64,000 bases of DNA from Sinomonas sp. ASV322 (GTDB taxonomy: Bacteria > Actinomycetota > Actinomycetes > Actinomycetales > Micrococcaceae), in NCBI RefSeq assembly GCF_030908245.1, contig NZ_JAVFJJ010000006.1, forward strand, positions 62,001 through 126,000. Direction: 5' to 3'. The notes under the pieces are model-generated. The model did not search any database. It was not told where the DNA came from and saw only the letters and a program-made list of their open reading frames with translations. Both the position numbers and the translations under genes were made by a program. The number at the start of each line of letters is the position of its first letter. Position 1 is the first letter of the stretch. Positions 11,347 through 58,475 of the stretch are shown here, piece by piece.

Positions 11347-11897
11347 TCAGCAGCCTTCGCCGTGGGGGTTCTGGAGGCAGTTCTCGGCGTAGAGCCTGAC
11401 CTCGGAGCGCCACACGCTCAGGGTCCTGGGCGCGGAGGGGACCGCGGCGGTGCCGGCGATACCCTGCCAGGGCCCGCCCTCGACGGAGAACTCCCCGGCG
11501 AACACGGTCGTCAGCCCGACCCGGAAGTCCCCGGTGGCCTGGTAGGCGTGGCTCGTGGCGGTCTTCTCCCCCCACCGCGCCTCGGGCACCGGCCCGCCCG
11601 GGGCCGCCGAGACCAGGGTGGTGCCGTCGCCGTAGTCGAAGCGGTGCTCGACCGGGCGCACCCGCACCCGCACCTTCCGGCCCAGCACGGTCGTCTCGAA
11701 CGACTGCACCCCCTCCCGGGAGGCACCGGCCGGCTCGGCGTACACGTTCGTCTCCGCGCCCTTGAGCGTATGCCTCCCCGGCTGCGCCCCCACCACCGAC
11801 GGCGCGATCGGCAACTCCCGCAACTGCTTTTCCGTCACGACCACCACCTCGCCACCACCCGGCCGCTGAGGCGGCTCGCCGTCGTACAGGCAATCCA
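11347..11897. repeat. Long inverted repeat, copy A (partner 57927-58475)
   Basis: About 550 bp encoding the C-terminal half of the PKD-like protein. By eye it matches the other copy in almost every base, with a handful of codon changes (for example D/E in CLYDGEPP, K/R in VVVVTEKQ, G/D in EPAGASRE). The orientation is opposite to the partner. Confidence 0.85.
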
Positions 11898-12231
11898 TGG
11901 CTTCCCGCTTGCGCTCCCCCGGGTTGGACCGCGGGGCGCTGTACCACAGCACCATCCGACCGCCCGGGCGTTCAGTGCACATCCCGTCGAAACCTGAACA
12001 GAAGGCGAACGCCTTGGTGCCGATACCCATCATGCACGTGGGCTCATAGGTGTACACGGTCGCGGCGGAGTCCTCCGCCTTCGCACTCGGAGGGCGGTAC
12101 TCCACTCGTCCCTTTGATTCAGCGTAGACCTGAGCAGAATCGCCGTTCCATTCGACCTTCGGGGGACTTGTTTCTGACGCCGCGATTGCTACCGAGACGA
12201 CGAACGCTCCCAACAGACGCTGCCCAATCAT
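11347..12231 (-). CDS. Cassette A: secreted PKD-like protein
   Basis: 294 residues from ATG 12231, whose ATGA overlaps the stop of the upstream lipoprotein gene; this overlap and a following signal sequence (MIGQRLLGAFVVSVAIAAS) fix the start. The N-terminal half (about 25-125) holds four cysteines (C-x, C, C, then DCLYDG). The C-terminal half has a PKD-like pattern: EHRFDYGDGT, then ATSHAYQATGDFRVGL. The last ~180 residues are almost identical to the protein at 57552-58475, while the first ~110 are strongly diverged. Probably exported and envelope-associated; function unknown. Confidence 0.8.
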   Translation of the reverse strand: MIGQRLLGAFVVSVAIAASETSPPKVEWNGDSAQVYAESKGRVEYRPPSAKAEDSAATVYTYEPTCMMGIGTKAFAFCSGFDGMCTERPGGRMVLWYSAPRSNPGERKREAMDCLYDGEPPQRPGGGEVVVVTEKQLRELPIAPSVVGAQPGRHTLKGAETNVYAEPAGASREGVQSFETTVLGRKVRVRVRPVEHRFDYGDGTTLVSAAPGGPVPEARWGEKTATSHAYQATGDFRVGLTTVFAGEFSVEGGPWQGIAGTAAVPSAPRTLSVWRSEVRLYAENCLQNPHGEGC

Positions 12232-12842
12232 GCCCGCCCGGCCTCTACCGTGGTCCACGCGCTATCAAACCTTGCATAGATGACCTGAGCGCCTTCGGCA
12301 GTTCCCCCTTCGTAGCTTTTGACCGCTGAACCGTCTCGGTCAAATCTCGTCGACGCCGATTCGTCGAGACTGAACAGGGCCATAACGTTTCCAACGGCGT
12401 CAATTGCCATGTTTGCCTGGAAACTGCTGACGGTTCTCCGAGGGCCGACTGACCAGCCACCATCCTGGTGGAGCTCTTTGGCTTTATCTATCTGAAACTG
12501 ACACATCTTGCACGATGGTTGCGATGATTCGCTAAGTGGACCGATGTCGCCCGTTTCTCTCGCGTACGTCACCGTGTCGAACCAGTACTGCGTGAACGCC
12601 GCGAAACCCTCTTCGGTGTTCTGCTTGGCGGCCTCGGGAAGCACGGGCTTGGGCAGGTTGCGGGCCGGGCCCTTTGAGCTCGCGGGCGTGGGCCGGGGGT
12701 CCGGCGTTGGCGTCGAGACAGTGCCCGAGGCGGTGGCTGAGCCATCAGTGGCGTCGGGCGGCCCGCCGCACGCCACAAGCGAAAGCGCGAAGACCACAAG
12801 GCCGACGGGCAGCAAGGACAACAGAACACGGCGCAGCGCCAT
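12228..12842 (-). CDS. Cassette A: DUF6318-type lipoprotein
   Basis: 204 residues. A lipoprotein signal peptide ends in the lipobox LVAC with C25 as the lipidation site. A Thr/Pro-rich linker (TPTPDPRPTPASSKGPARN) follows, then a helical domain with FAAFTQYWFDTVTYARETGD and a C-x-M-C pair. I place it in DUF6318 on these features. It has the same length as its paralogue at 56936-57550; the first ~110 residues are about 90% similar, the rest clearly diverged. It is translationally coupled to the PKD-like gene, so the two proteins probably act together on the outer face of the membrane. Confidence 0.82.
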   Translation of the reverse strand: MALRRVLLSLLPVGLVVFALSLVACGGPPDATDGSATASGTVSTPTPDPRPTPASSKGPARNLPKPVLPEAAKQNTEEGFAAFTQYWFDTVTYARETGDIGPLSESSQPSCKMCQFQIDKAKELHQDGGWSVGPRRTVSSFQANMAIDAVGNVMALFSLDESASTRFDRDGSAVKSYEGGTAEGAQVIYARFDSAWTTVEAGRA

Positions 12843-12928
12843 TAATCCCCCATATAGTCACGGTGCCAGTTTGTGACAGTGCCTAAGAACAGGCGCCCAC
12901 GATCGGTGCGGATCGATGGGCTCTTCGC

Positions 12929-12969
12929 AGTCTAACAACCCGGGCGCGAGTCGGGGAAAGTTATCCACA
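12929..12969 (-). promoter_or_regulatory. Cassette A promoter: TGTGGATAAC-N25-TAGACT
   Basis: On the minus strand TGTGGATAAC (12969-12960) is followed after exactly 25 nt by TAGACT (12934-12929), a plausible -10. The plus-strand reading of the first motif includes TTATCCACA, the perfect DnaA-box sequence. The same motif and spacing precede cassette B while the spacer sequence is unrelated. Downstream, CCGCACCG...GGGCGC is also shared by both leaders. Confidence 0.6.
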
Positions 12970-13006
12970 GCCTGCCCGGCCGGCGGCACAGCCGCGAAAT
13001 CGACCC

Positions 13007-13468
13007 TCAGCCGGCGCTTCGGTGCAGGGCAATCGCGCGACGCATCGCGGCACGAGCGCGCTTGCGGTCCCCCGAGGCGTCGTAGGCGAGGCCGAGTCGG
13101 TACCAGGTGCGCCAATCGCTCGGCGTGGCTTCGACGTCGGCCTGGAAGGCGGGGAACTCGGCGTCCGCGGCCGCGCGGACGATGCGTCCTCCCGGCGTCC
13201 TCGGAAGGTTGTCCTCAGGGAGTCCCCCCTCGGCGGCGAGCTCGCGGCCCAGCCGCTCGAGGCCCGCGCCGAACATGATCTCCCGCACGAGTGCCCACGC
13301 ACCGATGATCGGCAGGACGAGGTACCCGACACCGATCGCCTTGGCCACGAGCTGAGGGTCAGCGAGAAGGAGAATCGCCCGATTGAACGTCAGGACGAGA
13401 TAGAACACGAGCAGGAGCGCGACTCCCGCGACCCACAGCTTGGTGCGGTGCGCCTTCAGCCATTCCAC
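13007..13468 (-). CDS. Membrane protein with TPR-like C-terminus
   Basis: 153 residues from GTG 13468. Two membrane segments (about 11-31 and 45-62) are followed by a soluble tail with one TPR-like helical pair, WYRLGLAYDASGDRKRARAAMRRAIALH. It lies 4 nt after dapB and is probably co-transcribed; this small membrane protein is a common dapB neighbour in related actinobacteria. Function unknown. Confidence 0.72.
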   Translation of the reverse strand: MEWLKAHRTKLWVAGVALLLVFYLVLTFNRAILLLADPQLVAKAIGVGYLVLPIIGAWALVREIMFGAGLERLGRELAAEGGLPEDNLPRTPGGRIVRAAADAEFPAFQADVEATPSDWRTWYRLGLAYDASGDRKRARAAMRRAIALHRSAG

Positions 13469-13472
13469 GCGC

Positions 13473-14231
13473 TCACAGCCCCAGATCGAGGTAGCCGTCG
13501 AGTCCGTACGTCAGCCCCGGGTGCGCGGCAACGGAGCGGAGGCCGAGGAGGACTCCGGGCATGAAGGACGCGCGGTCGAACGAATCGTGACGAATCGTGA
13601 GCTGCTCCCCCGGCCCGCCGAGGAGAACCTCTTGGTGGGCAACGAGCCCGCGAAGCCGCACAGAGTGGACGTGGACGCCGTCGACGTCGGCGCCTCGTGC
13701 GCCGTCGAGCTGCTTCTCCGTGGCGTCGGGCGACGGCGCGACGCCGGCTTCCGCCCGCGAGGCCGCCACGAGCTGCGCGGTCCGCACCGCCGTGCCGGAC
13801 GGTGCATCGACCTTGTCCGGGTGATGGAGCTCGATGATCTCGACGGACTCGAAATACCGCGCAGCCTTCGCAGCGAAAGCGCTCGCCAGAACTGATCCGA
13901 GCGCAAAGTTCGGCGCGATGAGCACCCCGACTCCAGGATTCCCCTCAAGCAGGCCGCGGAGCGATTCGAGGCGTTCGGCCGTCCAGCCGGTCGTGCCGAC
14001 GACGGCGTGCAGGCCATGCTCGACCGCGAAGCGAACATTCGCCTCGGTCGAATCCGGGACGGTGAGATCCACGATGTAGCGGGCTCCGGCGTCGACAATC
14101 GCCTCAAGCGAATCGCTCCGGCCGAGTGCCGCGACGAGTTCCATGTCCGGGGCCGCAGCGACGGCCTTGACCGCCTCGGATCCCATGCGCCCGTTCGCGC
14201 CCAGCACTGCCACCGGAAGTCGTTCTGCCAT
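13473..14231 (-). CDS. dapB: 4-hydroxy-tetrahydrodipicolinate reductase
   Basis: 252 residues, second lysine-pathway enzyme, reducing the DapA product with NAD(P)H. The nucleotide-binding GANGRMG motif is at about 9-15; the catalytic H-H-x-x-K block appears as ELHHPDKVDAPSGTA, and the substrate loop APNFALGSVL precedes it. The short actinobacterial form is typical. The frame stays open upstream, but ATG at 14231 immediately precedes the conserved MAERLPVAVLGANGRMG start, so it is used. Confidence 0.95.
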   Translation of the reverse strand: MAERLPVAVLGANGRMGSEAVKAVAAAPDMELVAALGRSDSLEAIVDAGARYIVDLTVPDSTEANVRFAVEHGLHAVVGTTGWTAERLESLRGLLEGNPGVGVLIAPNFALGSVLASAFAAKAARYFESVEIIELHHPDKVDAPSGTAVRTAQLVAASRAEAGVAPSPDATEKQLDGARGADVDGVHVHSVRLRGLVAHQEVLLGGPGEQLTIRHDSFDRASFMPGVLLGLRSVAAHPGLTYGLDGYLDLGL

Positions 14232-14269
14232 GGGAACAAGCCTATCTGAGCCGACTTGGCCGAACGGCC

Positions 14270-14722
14270 TCACCCGAGCGCCGCGACCCACTCCTTGCCG
14301 CCGTCGTCGAAGAACTGCTCCTTCCAGATCGGCACTTCGGCCTTGACCCGATCTACGAGATCCGAGCACAGGCGGAAGGCCTCGCCTCGATGGGCGGAGG
14401 ACACGGCGCAGGCGAACGCGACATCCCCGACGCCGAGATCGCCGATGCGATGGGCGATCCACACGCGCATGGCGCGCTCAGACGGCCCGTACCGCTCGAG
14501 GTGATCCGCGACGACAGCGTCGACGACGCCGCGCAGCGTCGCCTCGGCGGTCGGATGGGCCGTGTAGGAAAGGCGGAGGACGCCTCGACCCTCGTCGTGG
14601 TCCCGCACGATCCCGGAGAAGGCGACGACGGCGCCCGCGTCCGGGGCGTCGACGGCGGCGCGCGCGGCGGCCTCGTCGAGAGGCTCGAAGGAGATGGAGG
14701 CGTGAATGATCTCAGTGTCCAT
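14270..14722 (-). CDS. moaE: Molybdopterin synthase catalytic subunit
   Basis: 150 residues. MoaE uses the C-terminal thiocarboxylate of MoaD to insert the two sulfurs into cyclic pyranopterin. The paired lysines of the active site are present with the usual 7-residue spacing (K127 in RVKAEV, K134 in PIWKEQFF), as is the SSAHRGEAF block. Its start overlaps the end of the mog-like gene by 11 nt, making it the last gene of the minus-strand molybdenum operon. Its partner moaD is on the plus strand 5 kb away. Confidence 0.94.
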   Translation of the reverse strand: MDTEIIHASISFEPLDEAAARAAVDAPDAGAVVAFSGIVRDHDEGRGVLRLSYTAHPTAEATLRGVVDAVVADHLERYGPSERAMRVWIAHRIGDLGVGDVAFACAVSSAHRGEAFRLCSDLVDRVKAEVPIWKEQFFDDGGKEWVAALG

Positions 14723-15188
14723 GGCTGCCCTCCAGCTGATCGCACAGATGAGCGATGATCGGATCGAGCACCGAAAGCCCGTCCATGACGCCCGACGGCG
14801 AGCCGGGCAGGTTCACGACGAAGGTCTTCCCTGCGGTCCCAGCGTGGCCGCGGCTCAGCGCGGCGAGGGGCGTCTTCGCCGTGCCGGCGCTGCGGATCGC
14901 CTCCATGATCCCCGGGATCTCGCGATCGAGGAGCGGAAGCGTTTCTTCAGGGGTCGCGTCGTCGGGGCTCAGCCCGGTGCCGCCACTCGTCACGACGATG
15001 GACGGACCAAGCGCCAGGAGCGCGCGGATGGCCGCTCCCACCGAGGGTCCATCAGGCACGACGGCGGCCGGAATCACGTCGAATCCGTGCTCGACCAGCC
15101 AGTCGGCGATCACGGGTGCCGAGCGATCCTCGTACACGCCCGTCGCGGCCCGCGTCGAGGCGATGACGATTCCCGCGCGGCGCGTCAC
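14712..15188 (-). CDS. mog: MoaB/Mog-type molybdenum cofactor protein
   Basis: 158 residues of the MoCF-binding fold, which adenylylates molybdopterin before metal insertion. Motifs are [17 protein letters not shown] and [16 protein letters not shown]. The start GTG at 15188 overlaps the moaC stop as GTGA and begins [23 protein letters not shown], the usual beginning of the family. MoaB and Mog cannot be separated with confidence by eye; the assignment rests on the fold. Confidence 0.88.
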
Positions 15189-15739
15189 CCGCCTACTCCG
15201 GTCCCGGCGCCGAGCGCCCAGTCCCCGCTCTTGCCCCCGCTCTTCGCGAGCACCATGACATCCGAGATCACGGCGTGCCGGTCGACGGCCTTGATCATGT
15301 CGTAGACGCCGAGCGCGGCGATGCTCGCCGCCGTGAGCGCCTCCATCTCGACCCCGGTCACGCCGCGGGTCTTGACGGTCGCAATGACGCGCACGGCGTC
15401 CATTTCGAGCTCGAAATCCACTGTCACCTTGGAGATGGGAAGCGGATGGCACAGCGGAATGAGCTCCGACGTCTTCTTGGCGGCCATGATGCCGGCGACG
15501 CGGGCGACGGCGAGCGCGTCGCCTTTGGGCAGTCCGCCCTCGGCGAGAAGCGAGAGCACCTCGCCGGTCGTGCGCAGGACGGCCTGGGCCGTCGCCTCAC
15601 GGGTCGTCTCGGTCTTGACGCTCACGTCGACCATGTGCGCGCTCCCGTCGGATCGCACATGGGTAAGGCGAGCGGCATGTTGGGGATCGTTCACGGGATC
15701 GTTCACGGGATCGTTCACGGGATCGTTCACAGCAGCCAT
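15185..15739 (-). CDS. moaC: Cyclic pyranopterin monophosphate synthase
   Basis: 184 residues. MoaC forms cyclic pyranopterin monophosphate from the MoaA product. Characteristic blocks are [23 protein letters not shown] and [11 protein letters not shown] with the catalytic Lys/Asp. The start at 15739 overlaps moeA by 13 nt. The N-terminus is odd: four perfect VNDP repeats precede the conserved domain, encoded by a 12-bp tandem repeat. Confidence 0.94.
15683..15730. repeat. Four perfect 12-bp tandem copies in the moaC 5' end
   Basis: GGGATCGTTCAC is repeated four times without mismatch (48 bp), encoding VNDP repeats close after the moaC start and touching the moeA stop region. The unit is a multiple of three, so copy-number change would not shift the frame. 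Confidence 0.9.
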
Positions 15740-17118
15740 ACTTCCACGTCGGCCCCAGCGGGCAGGTCGGTGACGTCCTCGGGGACCAGGACGAGGGCGT
15801 CGGACGTTGCGAGGGCGCCGAGGAGATGTGACCCCGGGCCCCCGACGAGGGCGACGGCGCCGTCCTCCAACCGCGCGCGCCGCACCTGGAGCTTCCCAGA
15901 AGGTGAATCGAGCGGCTCGGCAAGCGGAACCACGATTCGGCGCCGCGGCGCCGGCGCGCCGAGCAGCTCGGCAAGGACCGGCCGCACGAGGATCTCCCAC
16001 GAGACCCAACAGCTCACGGGGTTGCCCGGCAGGCCGAGGAACGGCACGCCGTGGACCGTTCCGATCCCCTGTGGCCCCCCGGGCTGCATGGCAAGGTGCA
16101 CGAAGTCGACCGGCTCGTCCGCGAGCGCGAGCTTCGTCGCCTCGAACGCGCCCTTCGAGACTCCGCCGGTCGTGACGATGAGATCGGCCCACGTCGCGGC
16201 TTCCGCGAGCGCGTCGCGAAGAGCCGTCGGCTCGTCGCTGCGCACCGCCGTCGCCCGCGCGTCGAGACCAGCCTCGCGCAGAGCCGCAGCAAGGAGCGTG
16301 CCATTCGCATCGTGGATCTGCCCAGGGAGCAGGGACGCGCCGGGCTCGGCGAGCTCGGCCCCCGTGCTCACGATGGCCACGCGCGGCGGCATCCGGACGG
16401 TCACCTCGGTGAGACCGAGCCCGGCCGCAAGCCCGAGCTGGGCCGGGCCGAGGCGGGTTCCCGCGGCGAGCACGACGGCACCCTCCGCGACATCGCTTCC
16501 GAGGCGCCGCACGAAAGTTCCCGACTCGGTCTCCGGAAGCAGGACCGGCCCGGACGCGCTGGTCGTCGACGACGTCGCGCTGGTGGTGGAAGACGGCACA
16601 GACTCCGGGAACCTGGGCGGCACGGCTCGCTCGACGGGCACGACGGCGTCGGCGCCCTCGGGCAGCATGGCGCCCGTCATGATCGGAGCGGCGTGCCCAG
16701 CGGGAAGGGGCACGGGAACAGAGCCCGCGGGAATCGACGCCGCGAGTGCGAATTCGCGGAGGGTTGCCCTGCCGTCATGAGCAGCGCCGTCATGAGCAGC
16801 GCCGCCGTGAGCAGCGCCGCCGTCAGCAGCGCCGCCGTCAGCAGCGCCGCCGTCAGCAGCGCCGCCGTCAGCAGCGCCGCCGTGAGCAGCGCCGTCGTGA
16901 GCAGCGCCGTCGGCGGCGAGCGCGAAATCGGCGGCGCGAACCGCGAAGCCATCCATCTGGGAGTTGTCGAACGGCGGCAGGCTCACGGGCGCCCTGAGGT
17001 CGCTGGCGAGGGCGAGGCCGAGCGCGTCGTCGAGCGCGCGGATCTCCGGTTCGCGGCCTGCGAGCGGCGCGAGCAGCTCGCGGATCGCGGCGCGGTGCGC
17101 GGAAACGCTTCTCCCCAT
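15727..17118 (-). CDS. moeA: Molybdopterin molybdenumtransferase
   Basis: 463 residues. MoeA inserts molybdate into adenylylated molybdopterin. Features are [18 protein letters not shown] (about 48-65), [50 protein letters not shown] and [20 protein letters not shown]. Inside the domain between residues 68 and 117 it carries a Gly/Ala/Asp/His repeat of nine 5-residue units not expected in the family, probably a surface loop. It begins 3 nt after the molybdoenzyme stop, so the cofactor genes are likely co-transcribed with the enzyme. Confidence 0.95.
16771..16912. repeat. 15-bp tandem repeat array inside moeA
   Basis: About nine copies of a 15-bp unit of the form GCAGCGCCGCCGTCA with small changes at two positions, giving GGAAD/DGAAH pentapeptides. 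The four central copies are identical. Because the unit is in frame, the array can expand or contract without breaking moeA. Confidence 0.9.
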
Positions 17119-17121
17119 GTA

Positions 17122-18774
17122 TCAGGCTCCTGCCTCGATCGTGATGCTGTGGTGCCCCGTGGCGCCGTCCGGCGGCGGAGGCGCGGACTGCTCGGTCTGA
17201 AGGGCACCCGAGCCGTCGGTAGCGCGAACGCTCAGCACATGGCGTCCGGGCGAGAGCTGGACTGTCGCTGACCATTGGTACCACGTGTCGCGCGAGATCC
17301 CGGTGCCGAGCCGCGCGGGCCGCCAGTCGCCGTCGTCGACTTTGACCTCGACGCGCGAGATCCCGCGATGCTGCGCCCACGCAACTCCGCCGAGCGCTAC
17401 CGTTCCGGCCGCCACACGCGCTCCGTCGCGCGGAGCGTCGATGCGCGAGGCGGTCTTGATCGGCCCGTGGTCCGACCAGCCGCGCGTGCTCCAGTACGCC
17501 TTGTCTGCCGCGAACGTCGTGACCTTGAGCTCCGTAATCCATTTCGTGGCCGAGACGAAGCCGTACAGCCCGGGGACGATCATGCGGACCGGGAATCCGT
17601 GCTCGGCCGGAAGGGGTTCGCCGTTCATCCCGATCGCGAGCATCGCATCCAATTCCGGGTCCATGAGGACTTCGAGCGGTGTCCCGGCCGTGAAGCCGTC
17701 GACGCTGCGCGAGAGCACCATGTCCGCCCCGGCGCGCGGCCGCGCCCGCGCGAGAAGCTCGCGGACGGGCCAGCCGAGCCAGCGGGCGTTCCCGACGAGA
17801 CTGCCCCCGACAGTGTTGGAGACGCACGCGATCGTCACGTAGCGCTCGATCATGGGCTGCGACACGAGCTCCTGCCACGCGATCGACACCGGGTTGTCGA
17901 CGAGCCCCGTGACGTCGAGCTTCCAGCCGTTCGGGTCGACGGACGGCACGACGAGCGCGGTGTCGATGCGATAGAAGTCCGCGTTCGGGGTCACGAGCGG
18001 CGTGATCCCTTTGACGTCCAGGCTTGCGTCGGGCGGAATCGGAGCCGCTGACGACGCTGGCGAGGGCAGGCGGAGCGCTTCCCGTGCTGCGCTCGCGGCG
18101 AGGGACGTGCCGCGGACGACGGCGGTGACCACGGCTCCGAGGGCGACGACGGCGGCGCTCCCCGCGAGCGCACGGACGAACCCCCTGCGAGACAGAGCCT
18201 GGGACGTCCCGGGCTGCCCCAGATCGCGGCCAGGCTCTGCGTCTCGGCCAGGCTCTGTGTCTCGGCCAGGCTCTGCGTCTCGGCCAGGCTCTGCGTCTCG
18301 GCGGAGGCGGCGCACGAGCCAGCGCACCATCCAGACCGCGACGATCCCCGCCGCGACCGCGCACGCGACCGCGAGGACGCTCACGAGCGAACGCGTTGCG
18401 ACCGCGACGACCCCGACGACGCCGATCAGGGCCGCGAGGGCTGCCCCGAAACCGGGGCGGCGCAGCTCGAGGACGCCAGCGGCGGCCCCTAGGGCAACGA
18501 GCGCAACGCCGATGGCCGTCACGAGGAACGCCTTGTCCCCCGTGCCGAACGTCTGGATCGCCCACTCCTTGGCCGCGGGCGGCGCGAAATCGACGACTGC
18601 GCCGGCGACCGCGGACACGGGGCTCAGCGAGGGGCTTGCGACGCCCGCGAGGAGCTCGCCCGTGAGGACGCCGGCGATGGCGGCCAGCACCCCGGCGGCC
18701 GCGGCCCACCACGTCGTATGACGCAGGGGATGGCCTTGCGTGAGCTCGGCTGGTCGGGACTTGATTGCTCCCAT
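17122..18774 (-). CDS. Membrane-anchored sulfite oxidase-family molybdoenzyme
   Basis: 550 residues. Four membrane segments in the first ~155 residues, a charged repeat linker, a Tat-like SRRGFVRALAG followed by another hydrophobic segment, then the oxidoreductase molybdopterin domain and a C-terminal Ig-like dimerisation domain (EVKVDDGDWRPARLG). C317 in TIACVSNTVGG fits the cysteine ligand of molybdenum. The family oxidises sulfite or reduces sulfoxides and nitrate-like substrates outside the cytosol; the substrate here is unknown. It is the first gene of the operon that also makes its cofactor. ATG 18774 is chosen because the sequence upstream lies in the divergent moaA promoter. Confidence 0.88.
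   Translation of the reverse strand: MGAIKSRPAELTQGHPLRHTTWWAAAAGVLAAIAGVLTGELLAGVASPSLSPVSAVAGAVVDFAPPAAKEWAIQTFGTGDKAFLVTAIGVALVALGAAAGVLELRRPGFGAALAALIGVVGVVAVATRSLVSVLAVACAVAAGIVAVWMVRWLVRRLRRDAEPGRDAEPGRDTEPGRDAEPGRDLGQPGTSQALSRRGFVRALAGSAAVVALGAVVTAVVRGTSLAASAAREALRLPSPASSAAPIPPDASLDVKGITPLVTPNADFYRIDTALVVPSVDPNGWKLDVTGLVDNPVSIAWQELVSQPMIERYVTIACVSNTVGGSLVGNARWLGWPVRELLARARPRAGADMVLSRSVDGFTAGTPLEVLMDPELDAMLAIGMNGEPLPAEHGFPVRMIVPGLYGFVSATKWITELKVTTFAADKAYWSTRGWSDHGPIKTASRIDAPRDGARVAAGTVALGGVAWAQHRGISRVEVKVDDGDWRPARLGTGISRDTWYQWSATVQLSPGRHVLSVRATDGSGALQTEQSAPPPPDGATGHHSITIEAGA
18230..18301. repeat. 18-bp tandem repeat in the molybdoenzyme linker
   Basis: Four copies of CCAGGCTCTGCGTCTCGG, one with a single change, encode RDAEPG repeats just before the Tat-like segment. 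The unit is in frame. Confidence 0.9.
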
Positions 18775-18810
18775 GCGTCCAGAATAGGTCCGCTGGCGTA
18801 CCGTAGATCT

Positions 18811-19881: not shown

Positions 19882-19888
19882 CCCGCCC

Positions 19889-20170: not shown

Positions 20171-20240
20171 TGCCCCGTTCCCTTTCGTGATCGAGGGCGG
20201 GCTACTACCACGGGATGACGACACAGCCCCGGCCCAGGCG

Positions 20241-20268: not shown

Positions 20269-20273
20269 TCGTC

Positions 20274-48859: not shown

Positions 48860-48900
48860 AATCGCTCAAGGCACGGTTCGAAGAGCCAGGAGTCAGTCAC

Positions 48901-50435: not shown

Positions 50436-50445
50436 CGAGCGCCAC

Positions 50446-51078: not shown

Positions 51079-51802
51079 CGAGGGCCGTGACCTTGTCGAC
51101 CGACGACGGCGAATCAGCCCCGGGCGCCGCAAGGTTCACCGTCACCTCGGTCGATCCCTTGACCGCCGTGACGGAAAGCGTTGTCTGAGCGGTTCCGGCA
51201 GAATCGACAATTCCCACCGAGCCCATCGCCTTTGCCCCGGGGACGCTCACCTCCACGAGTTTGACCGAGGCATGCGCCGAAAAGCCGCCGATGCGCATCG
51301 TCACGTCCGAGCAGATCGAAGCGACGCTCGCATCCACCGGGAGCAGGCGCTCGAGCGCTTCGACCGATGGAAAGCTCACGACGTGGACGGTAAGCGAACG
51401 GGACGAGTTGGACCGGTCCGAGGCGAGCATCCCCAGGTTTGCCTCCGACACGACCTTCGACATGTCGGTCTGGAACACACGGGCGCATGCCGGGGGCTGC
51501 ACGTCGAGCAGCTTCATGGCCTCCTTGGCCTGAGGGATGATCTTGGCGAAGTCAGCCTGCCCGATGACCTGCCCGGTGATCCCCTGGTCGGCCTTGACCT
51601 TCGTGAGGGCCGCCTGAATCGCTCGATCGGAGTAGACCGCCGGAGTCGGCGTCGGGCTTGGCGTCCGACTCGCCGTCGGGCTCTGAGCGGACGACGGCGC
51701 GTTCGCGCCTTCCTGAGCTCCTGGCGCCGAGCAGGCCGAAAGCGAAAGAACAGCGACGGCGAGAGCGGTTGCGAATAAGGACGCGGGGCGCAGAATGGCC
51801 AC
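51032..51802 (-). CDS. Putative lipoprotein, unknown function
   Basis: 256 residues from GTG 51802, with a GGGGGGA site. The signal peptide ends in lipobox LSAC (C24); a Ser/Thr/Pro linker (SPTASRTPSPTPTP) follows, then an alpha/beta domain of about 190 residues with two cysteines (CARVFQTD, SICSDV). No family recognised. It is probably anchored on the outer face of the membrane. Confidence 0.75.
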   Translation of the reverse strand: MAILRPASLFATALAVAVLSLSACSAPGAQEGANAPSSAQSPTASRTPSPTPTPAVYSDRAIQAALTKVKADQGITGQVIGQADFAKIIPQAKEAMKLLDVQPPACARVFQTDMSKVVSEANLGMLASDRSNSSRSLTVHVVSFPSVEALERLLPVDASVASICSDVTMRIGGFSAHASVKLVEVSVPGAKAMGSVGIVDSAGTAQTTLSVTAVKGSTEVTVNLAAPGADSPSSVDKVTALVSSTFAALDSQGAPA

Positions 51803-51855
51803 TTGAATCCCCCCAATTGTGACTACGGTGGCGCCAGAGTACGCGGTAGGGCGAG

Positions 51856-52737
51856 CTAGAACAAGACCGTCGCGAACGTCCCGACCCGTTCGAAGCCGAC
51901 GCGCTCGTAGCAGGCCCGCGCGCGGTAGTTGTAGTCGTTGACGTAGAGGCTCACGATGGGGGCCAGTCTGCGGGCAAAGGCGACGACGGCGGCCATCCCG
52001 CCGTGGCTCAGGCCCATTCCCCGGTGGCTCGGGTTGACCCACACGCCCTGGACCTGGGTGACGGCGGAGGAGACGGCGCCAAGCTCTGCCTTGAACAGGA
52101 CCTGGCCGTCGTCGCCGAAGCGGGCCATCGAGTGGCCTTGCTGGACGAGCTGCCGGACGCGGCGGTAGTAGTTGTCGCTTCCTCCGGCCACGGGGGAATA
52201 GCCGACTTCCTCCTCGAACATCGCGACGCAGGCGGGGGCCACGGCGTCGAAATCGTCGAGGGTCGTGATGCGGACGAGCGGGTCGGGATGCACTGCCGGG
52301 CCGCCCTCGAGGGCCATGAGCGGCTGGACCGGGCGAACGTCCCGCGCCCGGCGCCCGGGGAGCTCGTTGTACAGCGCGAGGGTCGCCTCGGCTGGACCGA
52401 AAATGGAGGCGAATCTGCGATCCGCGGCACGGATGGTCTCGGCGAAGGCCGGCGCGTCAGCCTCGCCCATGCTCACGGGCACGATGTTGGCGCCCAGCCA
52501 GCACGCCGCTGTGAGCCGCCCATCGCCGTCGAACGCGCCGATGATCTCGGCGCCGCTCGCGGTCGGGCCCGCCGTGCCGGCGGCCAGGACGTGGGCCGCG
52601 ATGAAGACGTTCGCGACCGGGTCCTCGGCCGCGAGCTCGCACAGCTCGAGGGTGTCCTCGTGCTCTAGCGTCCGGACTTGCCTCTCGCCCTTACGAGACG
52701 GTGACCACGGGGCCGCCCGCTGCAGCATCTTCGCCAT
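51856..52737 (-). CDS. GNAT acetyltransferase with N-terminal DUF4081-like domain
   Basis: 293 residues. The C-terminal GNAT fold shows the acetyl-CoA loop [21 protein letters not shown] and the closing [22 protein letters not shown]; the N-terminal half is the DUF4081-type domain common in actinobacteria. The start overlaps the ispG 3' end by 47 nt; ATG 52728 is an alternative with better ribosome-site spacing. It regularly follows ispG in this group. The substrate is unknown. Confidence 0.88.
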
Positions 52738-53857
52738 CGGCCTCCCCCATCTCCTCGGCGATCTTCATCGCCTCTTCGATCAGTGTCTCCACGATCTCGC
52801 TCTCGGGAACAGTCTTGATGACTTCTCCCTTCACAAAGATCTGGCCCTTGCCGTTGCCGGAGGCCACGCCGAGATCGGCCTCGCGGGCCTCCCCCGGACC
52901 GTTGACGACGCAGCCCATCACCGCGACGCGCAGCGGGAACGTCATGCCATCGAGACCCGCCGTGACCTCCTCGGCGAGCTTGTACACATCGACCTGCGCG
53001 CGTCCGCACGAAGGGCACGAGACGATCTCGAGCCGGCGCGGGCGGAGGTTGAGGGCCTGGAGGATCTGGATGCCGACCTTGACCTCCTCCACGGGAGGCG
53101 CCGAAAGCGAGACGCGGATCGTGTCGCCGATCCCCTTCGAGAGGAGAGCCCCGAACGCCGTCGCCGACTTGATCGTGCCCTGGAACGCAGGCCCAGCCTC
53201 AGTCACGCCCAGGTGAAGTGGCCAGTCGCCGCTCTCCGCCAGCATCTCGTACGCGCGGACCATGACGACCGGGTCGTTGTGCTTGACCGAGATCTTGAAG
53301 TCGTGGAAGTCGTGCTCCTCGAAGAGGCTCGCCTCCCACACCGCGCTCTCGACGAGCGCCTCGGGCGTGGCCTTGCCGTACTTCTTGAGCAGGCGGGCGT
53401 CGAGCGAGCCCGCGTTGACGCCGATCCTGATCGACGTGCCGTGGTCCTTCGCGGCCTGGGCGATCTCCCTGACCTGGTCGTCGAACTTGCGGATGTTGCC
53501 CGGGTTCACCCGGACCGCGGCGCAGCCCGCCTCGATCGCCGCGAAGACGTACTTCGGCTGGAAATGGATGTCCGCGATGACCGGGATCTGAGACTTCTTC
53601 GCGATGATCGGCAGGGCCTCGGCGTCGTCGGCCGACGGGCACGCGACGCGCACGATGTCGCAGCCGGCCGCGGTGAGCTCGGCGATCTGCTGGAGGGTCG
53701 CGTTGATGTCCGTCGTCGGCGTCGTCGTCATGGACTGGACGCTGATCGGCGACTCGGAGCCGACCCCCACGGACCCCACACGGATCTGCCGGGTCTGGCG
53801 CCGAGGGGCGAGGACCGGCGGCGGGGCGGACGGCATTCCGAGGCTGACCGAAGTCAC
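52691..53857 (-). CDS. ispG: (E)-4-hydroxy-3-methylbut-2-enyl-diphosphate synthase
   Basis: 388 residues, [4Fe-4S] enzyme of the MEP isoprenoid pathway. The N-terminal barrel starts [21 protein letters not shown]; cluster cysteines are in [11 protein letters not shown] and [14 protein letters not shown]. The C-terminal tail is acidic. It is preceded by dxr and rseP in the same direction, so two MEP enzymes are encoded within 4 kb. Confidence 0.96.
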
Positions 53858-53905
53858 GAAGAGCTCCTTGCTTAGTGGTGCGTCGGGTCTTGAGGGCTGG
53901 GTCTT

Positions 53906-54196
53906 TTAGAACTGGGAGGCGAGCGGACCGCTCACGGGGTTCCACGCGACGGCCGAGCTGCTGGCGAGGAGTCCCTCGACCGCGAACGGGTCCTGCGCCA
54001 GAAGCGTGTCGAGGGTTTCGGCGTCGTCGGCCTTGAACAGCAGGAGCGCACCGGTGCCGTCCTCGTACGGGCCGCTTGCGAGGAGCAACCCCTTCTCTGC
54101 GATGCTTGCGAGCCAGCCCCGGTGGTCAGCGCGGACCTCGTCGCGGCGCGCGGCGGTCGAGACGTCATAGAGGTATTCAACGGCGAAGACGGTCAT
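53906..54196 (-). CDS. YciI family protein
   Basis: 96 residues, ferredoxin-like YciI fold: FAVEYLYDVSTAARRDEVRADHRGWLASIAEKGLLLASGPYEDGTGALLLF with the conserved His-Asp type pair (R-x-x-H-x-x-W). Small cytosolic protein, function not established. It lies between rseP and ispG on the same strand. Confidence 0.88.
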   Translation of the reverse strand: MTVFAVEYLYDVSTAARRDEVRADHRGWLASIAEKGLLLASGPYEDGTGALLLFKADDAETLDTLLAQDPFAVEGLLASSSAVAWNPVSGPLASQF

Positions 54197-54229
54197 GCCA
54201 CCAGACTATCCCCTCGGGACTGGGCCGGT

Positions 54230-55561
54230 TCAGCCGAAGAGCTTCACGGGCTTCACGATGTCCGCGTAGATGAGCAGGACACTCATGACGATGAGCACGC
54301 TTGCCACGGCGTACGTGAGCGGGAGGAGCTTCGCGATGTCGAACGGTCCCGGGTCCGGCTTCTTGAGCCACTTCGCGACCCGGCGCCGGACGCCCTCGTA
54401 GAGCGCCCCCGCGACATGCCCGCCGTCGAGCGGGAGCAGCGGGACGAGATTGAACACTGCGAGCGCGAGGTTGACTCCCCCGAGGATGCTGACGAGCGTC
54501 GCGATGCGCGCCGAGAGCGGGACGTCCTCGAGCGCGGCGACCTCGCCCGCCACGCGGCCGACGCCGACGACGCTGATCGGCCCGTTCGGGTCCCGCGGCT
54601 CGTTGCTGAACGCGGCCTGGGCGACGGCGATCACCCGGGCGGGCAGATTGACGACGACGCCGGCCACCTGGACGATGTTCTCGCCCACGGCGGGGAGGAC
54701 GGCCGTCGCGGGCTGCGGCGTCGTTGCCTGCTTCGAGCCGATGCCGATGAACCCGGACTCGGTCGTCTTGTAGCTGCCGTCCGAATTCTTGGCGGGCTGG
54801 CCGTCCGAACCAACGACGGCGACCTTGTTGAGCACGGGCGTGATCGTCAGGTCGACGGTGCTGTCGCCGCGCTTGACGGTGATGCCGACGGTCTTCCCGG
54901 CCGACGCACGGATCCACGAGGAAAGCTGATCCCAGCCCGTGACTTCCTTTCCGTCGAAGCGGATGACCGTGTCGCCAGGCTTGAGCCCGGCCGCGGCGGC
55001 AGGCGTCCTCTTGCACGTCGAGGTATCGGCGGGCGCCCGCTCATTGGACGCGACCATGCACGCCGAGACGCTCGCGACCTGGGTCGTCGGCTGCGGGATT
55101 CCGAACCCCATGAGGACGATCGCCATGAAAAGGATCCCGAGAAGAATGTTCATCGCGGGACCGCCGAGCATGATGATGATCTTCTTCCACACCGGAAGCT
55201 GGTAGAAGAGCCGCCCGTGGTCTTCGGGGCGCACCTCCTCATGCGCCTGATCTCGCGCAGCCTCCGCGAGCCCCTGGAAGATGCCCGTGCTCGACTGGCG
55301 CACCGATCCGTCACGCCGGTTCGGCGGGTACATCCCCACCATCTGCACGTAGCCGCCGAGTGGGAGCGCTTTGATCCCGTACTCGGTCTCGCCTTTGCGG
55401 GTCGACCAGATCGTCGGCCCGAAACCGATCATGTAGCGGGTCACGCGCACCTTGAACAGCTTGGCCGGGATAAGGTGCCCGATCTCGTGGAGGGCGATCG
55501 AGACGGCGATTCCGACGGCGACGAACACGACGCCGAGAATGAAGAGAACAGTGGGATTCAT
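54230..55561 (-). CDS. rseP: Site-2 intramembrane metalloprotease (RseP/Rip1 type)
   Basis: 443 residues. Zinc motif H25-E-I-G-H29 in the first membrane helix, third ligand in NLVPLLPLDGGH, and a periplasmic-side PDZ domain (AAAAGLKPGDTVIRFDGKEVTGWDQL). It cleaves anti-sigma factors and other membrane substrates. ATG 55561 shares one base with the dxr stop (TGATG), indicating coupling. The symbol follows E. coli; the mycobacterial orthologue is Rip1. Confidence 0.94.
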   Translation of the reverse strand: MNPTVLFILGVVFVAVGIAVSIALHEIGHLIPAKLFKVRVTRYMIGFGPTIWSTRKGETEYGIKALPLGGYVQMVGMYPPNRRDGSVRQSSTGIFQGLAEAARDQAHEEVRPEDHGRLFYQLPVWKKIIIMLGGPAMNILLGILFMAIVLMGFGIPQPTTQVASVSACMVASNERAPADTSTCKRTPAAAAGLKPGDTVIRFDGKEVTGWDQLSSWIRASAGKTVGITVKRGDSTVDLTITPVLNKVAVVGSDGQPAKNSDGSYKTTESGFIGIGSKQATTPQPATAVLPAVGENIVQVAGVVVNLPARVIAVAQAAFSNEPRDPNGPISVVGVGRVAGEVAALEDVPLSARIATLVSILGGVNLALAVFNLVPLLPLDGGHVAGALYEGVRRRVAKWLKKPDPGPFDIAKLLPLTYAVASVLIVMSVLLIYADIVKPVKLFG

Positions 55562-56784
55562 CAGCTAGCCAAACGCTCGTGGGCGCGCTTCCGTGCCCAT
55601 TCTTCGGCGGCGAGGACCGTTTCCACAGACATTTCCGAGGATCCACCGTGCTCGGACAGCACGGCCTCGACCGTGTCGACGATGTCGAGGAAGCCGATCC
55701 GGCCGTCATGGAAGGCCTCGACGGCCTCCTCGTTGGCGGCGTTGAACACCGCCGGGAACGTGCTGCCCTGCTTCGCCGCGTCCTTGGCGAGGTCGACCGC
55801 AGGGAAGGCCCGCGCGTCGAGCGGTTCGAACGTCCACGCCGTCGCCCGGCTCCAGTCGCACGCGCTCGCGGCGTGCGGAACACGGTCCGGCCACCCGAGG
55901 CCAAGCGCGATCGGCAGCCGCATGTCGGGAGGCGAGGCCTGGGCGACGATCGAACCATCCGTGAACTGCACCATTGAGTGGACGACCGACTGCGGATGGA
56001 CGACGACGTCGATCGCCTCGAGCGCGACGCCGAACAGCAGATGCGCTTCGATGACCTCGAGGCCCTTGTTGACGAGCGTCGCGGAGTTGGTCGTGACGAC
56101 CTTCCCCATGTCCCACGTCGGGTGGTTGAGCGCCTCGGCTGGCGTGACGTGTTCGAGCTGGGCCCGGCTGCGCCCCCGAAACGGCCCTCCCGACGCCGTG
56201 AGGATGAGCCGCTCGACCTCGTCTGCCCGCCCCGCGCGCAAGCACTGGGCGATCGCCGAGTGCTCGGAGTCCACGGGAACGATCTGGCCGGGCGCCGCAG
56301 CCGCCGTCACGAGCGATCCACCGACGATAAGGCTCTCCTTGTTCGCGAGCGCGAGCGTCGCGCCCGAGGCGAGCGCCGCGAGCGTGGGCCCGAGGCCGAT
56401 GCTGCCCGTGATTCCGTTGAGGACGACGTCGGCCGGCCCGCTTGCGCCGCTCCACGCGGCGATGTGGGTCGAGGCGTCGGGGCCGCCGAAGAGCTCAGGC
56501 TCGTAGTCCGTCATGCCTTCCGCCGCGGCGGCCCCGCTGATGAGGCCCCGGAGCTCGTCGATGTTCCCCTCTGCGATCCCCACCGCCTCGGCACGCGTGT
56601 GCGCCGCCTGCCGGGCAAGGAGCGCGAGGTTGCCGCCCCCGGCGCTCAGCGCCGTCACCCGGAATCGCTGCGGCGCGCCGTCGACGACGTCAATCGCCTG
56701 AGTGCCGATGCTCCCTGTCGATCCGAGGATGATGACAGAGCGCTGCTCAGCAGGGCGTTCGGCGGGCGGCTCAGGGATCTGCAT
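55561..56784 (-). CDS. dxr: 1-deoxy-D-xylulose-5-phosphate reductoisomerase
   Basis: 407 residues. NADPH motif GSTGSIGTQ at 21-29; substrate and metal residues in VDSEHSAIAQCL, LTASGGPFRG and HPTWDMGKVVTTNSATLVNKGLEVIEAHLLFG; VVHPQSVVHSMVQFTDGS and AANEEAVEAF close the catalytic part. ATG 56784 gives the standard length; the frame upstream is unrelated sequence shared with the cassette B promoter. Confidence 0.96.
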   Translation of the reverse strand: MQIPEPPAERPAEQRSVIILGSTGSIGTQAIDVVDGAPQRFRVTALSAGGGNLALLARQAAHTRAEAVGIAEGNIDELRGLISGAAAAEGMTDYEPELFGGPDASTHIAAWSGASGPADVVLNGITGSIGLGPTLAALASGATLALANKESLIVGGSLVTAAAAPGQIVPVDSEHSAIAQCLRAGRADEVERLILTASGGPFRGRSRAQLEHVTPAEALNHPTWDMGKVVTTNSATLVNKGLEVIEAHLLFGVALEAIDVVVHPQSVVHSMVQFTDGSIVAQASPPDMRLPIALGLGWPDRVPHAASACDWSRATAWTFEPLDARAFPAVDLAKDAAKQGSTFPAVFNAANEEAVEAFHDGRIGFLDIVDTVEAVLSEHGGSSEMSVETVLAAEEWARKRAHERLAS

Positions 56785-56824
56785 GGCACCATTCAACCGC
56801 AGAAGCCCGACATGTACGGCTGCC

Positions 56825-56865
56825 TGTGGATAACTCCCACCACGCTGCCATGCGACCTGTAGACT
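56825..56865 (+). promoter_or_regulatory. Cassette B promoter: TGTGGATAAC-N25-TAGACT
   Basis: TGTGGATAAC (56825-56834; complement holds TTATCCACA) and TAGACT (56860-56865) are separated by exactly 25 nt, as at cassette A, with an unrelated spacer. The leader then shares CCGCACCG...GGGCGC with cassette A and ends in a GGGGGA ribosome site before the ATG. Confidence 0.6.
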
Positions 56866-56935
56866 GCTTGAACGTCCCGGAACCGCACCGTTCTTGGGCG
56901 CTCTCTTTCGCACCGGAGAAACTTTTGGGGGACAC

Positions 56936-57550
56936 ATGGCGCTGCGCCGCGCGTTTCGCGCACTCCTGCCCACGGCACTTCTCGCTCTCCTGCTGCCCTT
57001 GTCTGGCTGTGGCGGTGCGCCGCAGGCCGACGGGCCGTCCGTCTCCGGGTCGCAGGGATCCACGCCCACCCCGGACCCCCGGCCCACGCCCGCCAGCTCC
57101 AAGGGCCCGGCCCGCAACCTGCCCAGACCCGTGCTGCCCGAGGCGGCGAAGCAGAACACCAAGGAGGGCTTCGCGGCGTTCACGCAGTACTGGTTCGACA
57201 CAGTGACGTACGGGCTTGAGACGGGCGACAGCAGCGCTCTGCGCGAGATTTCCCTGCCCGACTGCCAGATGTGCAACGGCTATATCGAACAATCGGACAA
57301 GGTAAAGCAGGGGATCGGATGGCACGTAGGTCCACGATGGACGGTCTCGACCTTCACCTCGGATATGAGCGTTGATCCTTACAAGCAAGCATTGGGATAC
57401 TTCTTCTTGACTGAATCACCGTCTGAGGACTACGACCGGTCCGGCCGTCTTACAGAACGGCTCGAGCCGGAACGAGACACACATCCGAAGGCCATTTACG
57501 CAGTCCATAAAGATGGCCGCTGGCTAGCCGCTCAAGCTGGTCAGGCCTGA
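56936..57550 (+). CDS. Cassette B: DUF6318-type lipoprotein
   Basis: 204 residues from ATG 56936 (GGGGGA site 5 nt upstream; an in-frame upstream ATG lacks support). Lipobox LSGC with C25, the same Thr/Pro linker as cassette A, then FAAFTQYWFDTVTYGLETGD and a C-Q-M-C pair. The first ~110 residues are close to the cassette A lipoprotein, the rest is diverged but colinear (GWHVGPRWTVSTF against GWSVGPRRTVSSF). The PKD-like gene starts one base after its stop. Confidence 0.82.
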   Translation: MALRRAFRALLPTALLALLLPLSGCGGAPQADGPSVSGSQGSTPTPDPRPTPASSKGPARNLPRPVLPEAAKQNTKEGFAAFTQYWFDTVTYGLETGDSSALREISLPDCQMCNGYIEQSDKVKQGIGWHVGPRWTVSTFTSDMSVDPYKQALGYFFLTESPSEDYDRSGRLTERLEPERDTHPKAIYAVHKDGRWLAAQAGQA

Positions 57551-57551
57551 G

Positions 57552-58475
57552 ATGCGCAAACTGCCGCCGGTTGCCCTGGCACTGCTGGTTTCCCTACTCA
57601 TTTCGTTTGGTTCCGGATGGACAGCAGCCGTGGCCGCGCCTTCCGAGCCCAGAATTGATTCGAAATTCAATCGAGGCGCCGTCGACATGAATGGGCAGCG
57701 AGACGGGACTATCGATATTAAGATTCCGCCACCACCCAAGGAGGCGGTCGGCCCCTTCGTGTACAGCTATCAGCCCGCGTGTAATGAGGGGCTTAGCGGG
57801 GACGCTGCAGATCTGTGCGTTGCGTTCGACGTGAAGTGTCGGGGGATGCATCCGGGAAAGGCGCAGCTCATCCGCTGGTTCCGGGCGAGCCAGTCGGACC
57901 CAAGCACCCTCGAGCGGCTAAACGAGGATTGCCTCTACGAAGGGGATCCGCCTCAGCGGCCGGGTAGTGGCGAGGTGGTGGTCGTGACGGAGCGGCAGTT
58001 GCGGGAGTTGCCGATCGCGCCGTCGGTGGTGGGGGCGCAGCCGGGGCGGCATACGCTCAAGGGCGCGGAGACGAACGTGTACGCCGAGCCGGCTGATGCC
58101 TCCCGGGAGGGGGTGCAGTCGTTCGAGACGACCGTGCTGGGCCGGAAGGTGCGGGTGCGGGTGCGCCCGGTCGAGCACCGCTTCGACTACGGCGACGGCA
58201 CCTCCCTGGTCTCGGCGGCCCCGGGCGGGCCGGTGCCCGAGGCGCGGTGGGGGGAGAAGACCGCCACGAGCCACGCCTACCAGGCCACCGGGGACTTCCG
58301 GGTCGGGCTGACGACCGTGTTCGCCGGGGAGTTCTCCGTCGAGGGCGGGCCCTGGCAGCCAATCGCCGGCACCGCCGCGGTCCCCTCCGCGCCCAGAACC
58401 CTGAGCGTGTGGCGCTCCGAGGCCAGGCTCTACGCCGAGAACTGCCTCCAGAACCCCCACGGCGAAGGCTGCTAA
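57552..58475 (+). CDS. Cassette B: secreted PKD-like protein
   Basis: 307 residues with a clear signal peptide (MRKLPPVALALLVSLLISFGSGWTAAVAA split across about 29 residues). The N-terminal half, with cysteines in QPACNEG, DLCVAFD, VKCRG and EDCLYEG, differs strongly from cassette A except for the cysteine pattern; the last ~180 residues are nearly identical to cassette A, including the PKD-like DYGDGT...SHAYQATGDF motif and the C-terminal ENCLQNPHGEGC. It ends 4 nt into the convergent phospholipase gene. Confidence 0.8.
   Translation: MRKLPPVALALLVSLLISFGSGWTAAVAAPSEPRIDSKFNRGAVDMNGQRDGTIDIKIPPPPKEAVGPFVYSYQPACNEGLSGDAADLCVAFDVKCRGMHPGKAQLIRWFRASQSDPSTLERLNEDCLYEGDPPQRPGSGEVVVVTERQLRELPIAPSVVGAQPGRHTLKGAETNVYAEPADASREGVQSFETTVLGRKVRVRVRPVEHRFDYGDGTSLVSAAPGGPVPEARWGEKTATSHAYQATGDFRVGLTTVFAGEFSVEGGPWQPIAGTAAVPSAPRTLSVWRSEARLYAENCLQNPHGEGC
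57927..58475. repeat. Long inverted repeat, copy B (partner 11347-11897)
   Basis: The ~550-bp near-identical segment begins near GGATTGCCT, in the codons for the last cysteine of the variable half, and runs to the stop codon. A 71-codon frame on another phase is identical between the copies, showing identity at nearly all silent positions too. Confidence 0.85.

Follow-up and report, generated by a model that had tools for sequence, protein, structure and literature searches.

In agr and ComQXP loci, a variable block extends over halves of neighboring genes between conserved flanks, and these partner genes are polymorphic between strains, forming specificity groups. For ComQXPA, a polymorphic system with four pherotype groups has been described (PMC4008528). 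The window analyzed here, a stretch of 64,000 nucleotides from Sinomonas sp. ASV322, contains two inverted cassettes (A and B) that resemble such loci: two adjacent partner genes are polymorphic between strains, and a hypervariable block, inherited as a unit, lies across the adjoining gene halves between conserved flanks. In contrast to agr/ComQXP, the cassettes have no peptide pheromone gene (the partner ATG overlaps the lipoprotein stop in A, and the two genes are 1 nt apart in B), and Pfam searches of the four cassette proteins revealed neither a histidine kinase nor a regulator. They encode instead a DUF6318 lipoprotein and a secreted PKD-like protein, and several genomes carry two copies with homogenized ends. 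Among the matches listed, literature searches by title yielded no related work on Sinomonas lipoproteins and no hypervariable PKD/lipoprotein case in Arthrobacter, and those on agr and NTF2-like lipoproteins yielded nothing of this kind. On balance, we consider it more probable than not that the cassettes encode a module of two cell-surface proteins whose specificity halves are matched, with middles exchanged between conserved ends.

The initial annotation had described the inverted cassettes as encoding the same two coupled proteins, and their coordinates and reading frames were confirmed (Table 1), as was the presence in both 204-residue lipoproteins of a C-x-M-C pair (CKMC/CQMC). At further loci, the gap between the lipoprotein and partner genes ranged from −68 to +17 nt. 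Relatives were sampled as one genome per GTDB species, and 32 named loci provided 26 usable lipoprotein-partner pairs after removal of L127 and L138, which begin inside the partner gene, and of L117, L139, L141 and L142, which failed the lipobox rule. The Sinomonas set comprised 21 cassettes from 15 genomes, excluding a third, contig-split copy in G010 and a lone lipoprotein in G011 (L083); S. cellulolyticus (L117) was used only in the flank/hole comparison and in the dN/dS and allele-class analyses.

Table 1 Features of cassettes A and B, in positions of the window
Feature	Positions	Strand	Basis or content
Cassette A	11347-12842	-	DUF6318 lipoprotein and secreted partner with PKD-like domain
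Lipoprotein of A, DUF6318, 204 aa	12228-12842	-	Reading frame; Pfam PF19843, 124 bits
Secreted partner of A, 294 aa	11347-12231	-	Signal peptide, variable tail, Cys domain, PKD-like domain
Conserved 5' block of A (lipoprotein codons about 43-100)	12545-12716	-	BLASTN, 89% with 57059-57230, E 3e-58
Variable middle of A (lipoprotein C-terminal half, partner N-terminal half)	11897-12544	-	No BLASTN match to B
Conserved 3' block of A (PKD-like end of partner)	11349-11896	-	BLASTN, 96.9% with 57926-58473, E 0
Upstream element of A, TGTGGATAAC-N25-TAGACTG	12928-12969	-	Spaced pattern search
Cassette B	56936-58475	+	DUF6318 lipoprotein and secreted partner with PKD-like domain
Lipoprotein of B, DUF6318, 204 aa	56936-57550	+	PF19843, 112 bits; AF2 model, pLDDT 88.8
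Secreted partner of B, 307 aa	57552-58475	+	Reading frame
Conserved 5' block of B	57059-57230	+	BLASTN, 89% with 12545-12716
Variable middle of B	57231-57925	+	No BLASTN match to A
Conserved 3' block of B	57926-58473	+	BLASTN, 96.9% with 11349-11896
Upstream element of B, TGTGGATAAC-N25-TAGACTG	56825-56866	+	Spaced pattern search

When A and B were compared by BLASTN (E up to 1e-3), only two blocks aligned, with DNA identities of 89% over 172 nt (5' block) and 97% over 548 nt (3' block). No match was obtained across the ~650-nt middle, in agreement with the strong divergence noted there previously, and the contrast between ends and middle is therefore far beyond chance. The conservation initially ascribed to both ends holds for the partner 3' end and for lipoprotein residues about 41-100, but not for the lipoprotein start, where the first ~40 residues (signal peptide and linker) are only 42-50% identical between A and B. 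Similarly, the reported near-identity at silent sites applies to the partner 3' end (dS 0.04) but not to the lipoprotein block (dS 0.48). The four cysteines said to be kept in the variable half of the partner (77, 89, 96 and 127 of B) were indeed invariant in 27 aligned sequences.

Five other two-cassette Sinomonas genomes showed the same pattern of ends and middle, which was weakest in G001. Within-genome dS was determined for four of the six Sinomonas pairs (G001 and G010 were left out) and was 0.01-0.04 at the partner 3' end, compared with 0.25-0.84 in eight of nine between-genome pairs and 0.02 in the remaining, near-identical pair. Thus, the outer ends are homogenized between copies within one genome, in line with the gene conversion proposed earlier. 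In the lipoprotein block, dS was 0.42-0.75 in the four within-genome pairs. Estimation of dN/dS by the Nei-Gojobori method for 16 pairs and five regions each gave no measurable ratio above 1; in the lipoprotein half of the four pairs whose alleles are closest, values were 0.11-0.15. Another mechanism considered at the outset, diversifying selection in the middle, was not supported, and we rejected it as a process acting by point mutation; silent sites are saturated in many pairs, where old positive selection may have gone unseen. The consistently low ratios and the only partial homogenization of the lipoprotein block would suit a neutral mosaic of old paralogues, in which gene conversion homogenized the ends while the middles became too diverged to recombine and stayed linked, without cognate contact or selection for variety. 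Linkage would also account for the inheritance of the block.

Comparisons among relatives make this neutral explanation unlikely. Two Sinomonas species are 97-99% identical over 3.7 and 4.7 kb flanking a 397-bp hole, which covers the lipoprotein C-terminal half and the partner N-terminal tail. A hole of this kind between such similar flanks indicates an allele swap, and similar holes were found in Arthrobacter cassettes; both show replacement rather than slow drift. An allele class with a lipoprotein ending in EAG[RTG]A was present at all four recognized Sinomonas sites (4/4), and the cysteines are retained in the middles, which also speaks against neutrality. The inner block (lipoprotein C-terminal half plus partner tail) thus has a history different from that of the ends. 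Similar versions of it are present at separate chromosomal sites and in separate species, and it has been replaced as a unit where the surrounding chromosomes are nearly identical. Cassette swapping, which the initial annotation had listed among three possible causes, is supported by the 397-bp hole.

In Sinomonas, both distances and trees associated the lipoprotein half with the partner tail more closely than with other parts of the cassette. The histories of these two halves fitted each other with a dlnL of 33-35, compared with 100-220 for either of them against the Cys domain, although the AU test rejected even the best cross-tree (p = 0.017-0.022). Lipoprotein-half distances were also correlated with Cys-domain distances (r = 0.38; 0.27-0.32 as partial correlation) and, weakly, with those of the partner C-part (r = 0.31). 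The C-part data rejected the lipoprotein N-part tree (dlnL 269), though it was the least bad of four, and the two outer ends therefore do not share one common tree. Signal peptides, used as a control, may fail to show the link simply because they are short and evolve fast. The outlier G004 was dropped from the distance correlations; a further distance analysis, the cross-tree tests and the allele-class analysis omitted it as well, together with G009b, whose lipoprotein gene is interrupted by an insertion. Among 28 cassettes from other genera (excluding the duplicate L024, L147 without CxxC in the chosen frame, and the truncated L020 and L144), nearly all regions correlated, so that the contrast seen in Sinomonas is not replicated there. 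With these caveats, distances, trees and the signal-peptide control support the prediction that both inner halves changed together.

Physical contact between the inner halves is plausible; tight linkage combined with homology-limited recombination could yield the same pairing without contact. Alternatively, the middle might be an exposed face that varies under pressure from phages, predators or hosts, the halves co-varying through exposure and not through mutual binding. A surface lipoprotein with a secreted protein, alleles replaced between conserved ends and the existence of several allele classes are compatible with such variation. However, the histories of the lipoprotein half and the tail agree more closely with one another than either does with that of the Cys domain, itself variable, and dN/dS gave no sign of positive selection. 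We regard this alternative as rather unlikely, if slightly less so than the neutral one.

Both lipoproteins belong to DUF6318 (PF19843; 124.2 bits for A and 112.2 bits for B, cut-off 23.8), a family of unknown function whose name was not found in the literature searched. The lipoprotein was modeled as NTF2-like (fold predicted on B, with A in the alignment), with helices packed on a curved sheet and the whole domain aligned. Sequence searches of solved structures gave three weak matches for the lipoprotein (E 0.62-0.96) and none for the partner. The intermembrane-space domains of ARC6/PARC6, which function in plastid division, are 10-13% identical to the lipoprotein; we know of no allelic variation of the cassette kind in ARC6/PARC6, and the common fold is no indication of a common function. 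The partner of B was predicted to contain a PKD fold, but scores for PF18911/PF00801 (16.1/13.9 bits for A and 15.2/14.2 for B) were below the curated cut-offs of 27/23.5, and we therefore use the label "PKD-like". Unlike the PKD domains of ColG, PrtV and Epp, it has no protease attached. The partner tail was modeled with low confidence (10-residue blocks at pLDDT 43-60).

In the matched-halves reading, the lipidated NTF2-like domain would retain the partner at the cell surface by its N-terminal tail, with a good fit restricted to cognate halves. Recombination with incoming DNA or the other copy could use the conserved ends, kept uniform by gene conversion, as homology arms; the inner block would then be swapped with its two halves still joined. 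More speculatively, the displayed complex might meet an outside agent (phage, predator or neighbor cell) that favors rare alleles, and this advantage might maintain the several allele classes. Both the lipoprotein-tail binding and its biological role are what we infer from these patterns. Matched variable halves would also be expected if the lipoprotein neutralized a variable toxin domain of the partner in a toxin-immunity or contact-inhibition pair. In A. terricola (L137), a second DUF6318 gene in tandem is accompanied by a decayed copy of the partner, and one genus (g3) has DUF6318 arrays; both would fit such a pair. Yet Pfam, NCBIfam, PADLOC and PHROGs revealed no toxin family in the cassette proteins, the lipoprotein gene comes first, and no secretion system was noticed beside the cassette. 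Furthermore, polymorphic toxins have a constant N-terminal and a variable C-terminal part, whereas this order is reversed in the partner, in which about 125 aa on the N-terminal side vary. We consider a toxin-immunity function very improbable. The defence database gave no match, and no neighboring gene hinted at a pathway.

Switching inside a single genome, in which A and B would act as donor and recipient, has a pilin-like precedent and would draw on two inverted copies with homologous ends. Silent-cassette antigenic variation, however, relies on promoterless or headless donor copies, whereas the own genome (a 97.9% complete draft) contains two complete copies only. Further copies and headless C-terminal fragments, which the initial annotation had envisaged, were absent from this draft: the DNA search returned three pieces, all inside A or B, and the DUF6318 profile and partner protein searches gave two matches each. 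A silent archive in this genome was therefore rejected. A and B are both intact and have a common upstream element, which makes switching the least probable explanation of all. A genome-wide search for the spaced pattern forming this element gave two occurrences, one at each cassette. A second upstream element, TGTGGATAA, appeared cassette-specific within the window but occurs 24 times genome-wide, with three occurrences grouped in one 0.4-kb cluster, and is thus no proof of special regulation of the cassettes.

A broader interpretation, which we advance only tentatively, is a lock-and-key code throughout the Micrococcaceae, in which a lipidated NTF2-like receptor matches the N-terminal tail of its secreted PKD-like partner, and a specificity block of ~0.4-0.7 kb reaching across the two genes is traded as a unit among sites, strains and species, some cells holding two codes; this would constitute a new surface recognition system. 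If the matched-halves reading is correct, DUF6318 gains a fold and a partner protein together with a role that can be tested, the alleles supply a natural collection of protein pairs, both cognate and non-cognate, and the cassettes offer a clear case of adjacent genes trading facing halves while the outer halves are kept uniform. The loci could also be considered when strains of Arthrobacter and Sinomonas are typed or their interactions with phages are studied. A phage origin was rejected, as lipoprotein B had no match in phage records and the lipoprotein model none at E below 0.001 among viral structures. DUF6318 was present in 114 of the 120 family genomes searched. Carriage on plasmids was likewise rejected: among 72,556 plasmid records, the partner was found in four and the lipoprotein in three, all typed as non-mobilizable and originating from Arthrobacter and Microbacterium.

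In this window, which comes from a Sinomonas (Micrococcaceae), cassettes A and B, each pairing a lipoprotein gene with the gene of a secreted partner, are inverted relative to each other and separated by 44 kb. Both lipoproteins are 204 amino acids long and belong to DUF6318. The partner, which had no family above the cut-off in Pfam and NCBIfam, has a C-terminal part that is PKD-like by fold. Its start overlaps the lipoprotein stop in cassette A, and a single base lies between the two in cassette B. Alignable DNA between A and B is confined to two blocks, 172 nt of the lipoprotein gene at 89% and 548 nt of the partner gene at 97% identity, whereas the middle reaches 27–58% per 20-codon window (60% in the last short window). 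Across 19 Sinomonas cassettes, mean third-position GC was 0.82 and 0.92 in the ends, 0.64 in the variable C-terminal half of the lipoprotein (lipoprotein half), 0.62 in the N-terminal tail of the partner, and 0.72 in its Cys domain.

Features of the window and of related loci, and chromosomal sites of Sinomonas cassettes (G, genomes, with G000 that of the window; L, loci; a and b, cassettes within one genome)
Feature	Coordinates	Strand	Sequence or genomes
Cassette A	11347–12842	−	window
Cassette B	56936–58475	+	window
TTATCCACA, upstream of A	12961–12969		window
TTATCCACA, upstream of B	56825–56833		window
DUF222/HNH gene immediately 3' of A	9493–11094		window
Stretch without match in L077	3740–4136		L119 (G014)
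Decayed cassette, A. terricola	4876–5965		L137
Interrupted cassette G009b	5639–8230		L067
dxr-adjacent site			five Sinomonas genomes
dapB-adjacent site			G000 (cassette A), G001a, G010 (by contig ends)
Third site			three Sinomonas genomes
Fourth site			eight Sinomonas genomes
Outside these four sites			G001b, G010b, G004

The two occurrences of TTATCCACA in the window, against 0.05 expected, lie ~100–120 bp upstream of the cassettes. This sequence, which we take to be a DnaA-box 9-mer, occurs 24 times in the genome versus 2 for the reversed control, and TGTGGATAAC-N{20,30}-TAGACTG occurs in the genome only at A and B. Several Sinomonas cassette copies lack TTATCCACAGG, which was found in 43 of 147 loci (overlaps included) and, among the loci inspected, directly upstream of DUF6318.

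Named records with the cassette come from Sinomonas, Arthrobacter, Paenarthrobacter, Pseudarthrobacter, Tersicoccus and one Micrococcaceae MAG. With one genome sampled per GTDB species, the partner was present in all 15 Sinomonas genomes and in 46 of the 58 genomes searched for relatives (both counts include the window's genome), and DUF6318 in 114 of 120 family genomes versus none of 14 controls. A DUF6318 match lay ≤900 nt upstream of the partner in 41/41 loci examined, a set in which some places are counted twice and L005–L033 represent 29 loci from 29 genomes by best matches only. Of the 32 named loci, two start within the partner gene and fall outside this count. Up to 23 DUF6318 matches, part of them in tandem, were seen in genomes of genus g3 (L084–L089; G134, G016), and the order lipoprotein-partner-lipoprotein in several genera (L092, L093, L094, L103). 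In the decayed cassette of A. terricola, a second lipoprotein in tandem is followed by a partner gene without the middle.

The ends of the cassettes are homogenised between copies. Among 20 Sinomonas cassettes (six within-genome and 184 between-genome pairs), mean protein identity within versus between genomes was 0.92 versus 0.70 for the first partner C-part, 0.93 versus 0.72 for its rest and 0.83 versus 0.75 for the lipoprotein N-part, compared with 0.37 versus 0.40 for the lipoprotein half and 0.29 in both cases for the tail. The weakest within-genome pair, in G001, had 0.71 in the lipoprotein N-part, below the between-genome mean, and 0.76 in the last part of the partner. The dS of the partner C-part was 0.04, 0.03, 0.02 and 0.01 within G000, G006, G007 and G009, respectively (G001 and G010 left out), versus 0.25–0.84 in eight of nine between-genome Sinomonas pairs and 0.02 in the ninth (G003/G014). 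Both window copies share a six-residue insertion in this part, found in 0/19 other cassettes. In G010, two contigs stop within the C-part and two others start with its last 40 residues, and in G018, from another genus, a C-terminal partner piece of equal score opens two contigs; these breaks follow the pattern of unresolved repeats.

The middles, in turn, have been exchanged. Between Sinomonas sp. ASV486 (L119) and G003 (L077), which belong to different GTDB species, identity is 97.3% along a 3.74-kb flank and 98.8% along a 4.73-kb flank, and the stretch separating these flanks gives no match; similarity declines from ~3600 and returns at ~4141 inside the partner gene. S. atrocyanea DS1018 and DS1015 differ by a 266-bp hole with a 90% match on either side. 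Two Arthrobacter pairs (L130/L131, L128/L144) show a hole between the upstream match and the 3' part of the partner gene, and their downstream flanks show no alignment at the corresponding position. In A. terricola, two paralogous cassettes match at their ends only, as do two on large replicons of StoSoilB13. A. bambusae DS999 and DP-A9 are a counter-example to such swaps, matching at 87–89% through a cassette without a hole; in these same-allele strains the lipoprotein half has 85% protein identity and a dN/dS of 0.15. In strains sharing one allele, the middle is thus almost as conserved as its surroundings. Holes between matching flanks together with well-kept shared alleles indicate that the variety comes at least partly from replacement with old alleles, and that the alleles are under constraint. 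Sinomonas cassettes occupy at least four chromosomal sites; alleles whose lipoprotein ends in EAG[RTG]A are present at all four, and several allele classes occur at the dxr site and likewise at the fourth.

The facing halves share a closer history than other parts of the cassette. Distance matrices of lipoprotein half and tail correlated across the 20 Sinomonas cassettes (r = 0.53, p = 0.0005, the minimum attainable with 1999 shuffles), with partial correlations of 0.52 and 0.49 when one or the other outer end was controlled. Within the lipoprotein itself, N-part and half gave r = 0.28 (p = 0.0035), which fell to 0.09 (p = 0.22) once the C-part was controlled for. The Cys domain also correlated with the lipoprotein half (r = 0.38, partial 0.27–0.32). 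Linkage of the halves without contact between the proteins could produce shared history as well, a less likely but live alternative. For the lipoprotein half and the partner's signal peptide, which is encoded between that half and the tail, no correlation was seen (r = 0.11, p = 0.11; 19 cassettes). Among 28 cassettes from other genera the half-tail partial correlation was 0.43, but the remaining partials were likewise 0.29–0.42, so that this set does not replicate the contrast. In tree tests with 19 cassettes, fitting the lipoprotein-half data to the tail tree cost 35 log units, compared with 114 for the lipoprotein N-part tree, 220 for the Cys domain tree and 268 for the C-part tree, and the tail data lost 33 on the lipoprotein-half tree versus 81, 100 and 122 on the others. 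SH did not reject either cross-fit (0.27, 0.15), whereas AU rejected both (0.022, 0.017). Fitting the N-part data to the C-part tree cost 37 log units (SH 0.17, AU 0.013), the C-part data rejected the N-part tree outright (269; three other trees 363–795), and the Cys domain data rejected every other tree. The tests therefore describe a mosaic with at least three histories, in which the ends only loosely share one. In a pairing spotted first and counted afterwards, among alleles that are not independent, W in the tail accompanied lipoprotein ends EAG[RTG]A in 7/7 cases and F accompanied all others (12/12).

In the reading we favour, with contact between the proteins, the conserved ends would act as homology arms, the partner tail may dock on an NTF2-like sheet or pocket, and specificity would be cognate. 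The layout of the cassette works like that of agr/ComQXP specificity loci; unlike these, it has neither pheromone nor kinase and is hence not an agr/ComQXP locus. ComQXPA is described as polymorphic in one published account (PMC4008528).

Genes similar to the DUF222/HNH gene beside cassette A also follow cassettes G007a, G009a, G009b (in pieces) and G006b on the 3' side, but none follows cassette G001a, which shares the chromosomal site of A. This gene is possibly a mobile or homing element. In G009b, ORFs that we take to be IstA/IstB-like separate a truncated lipoprotein from its partner, and the nearby DUF222/HNH region contains a transposase-like ORF.
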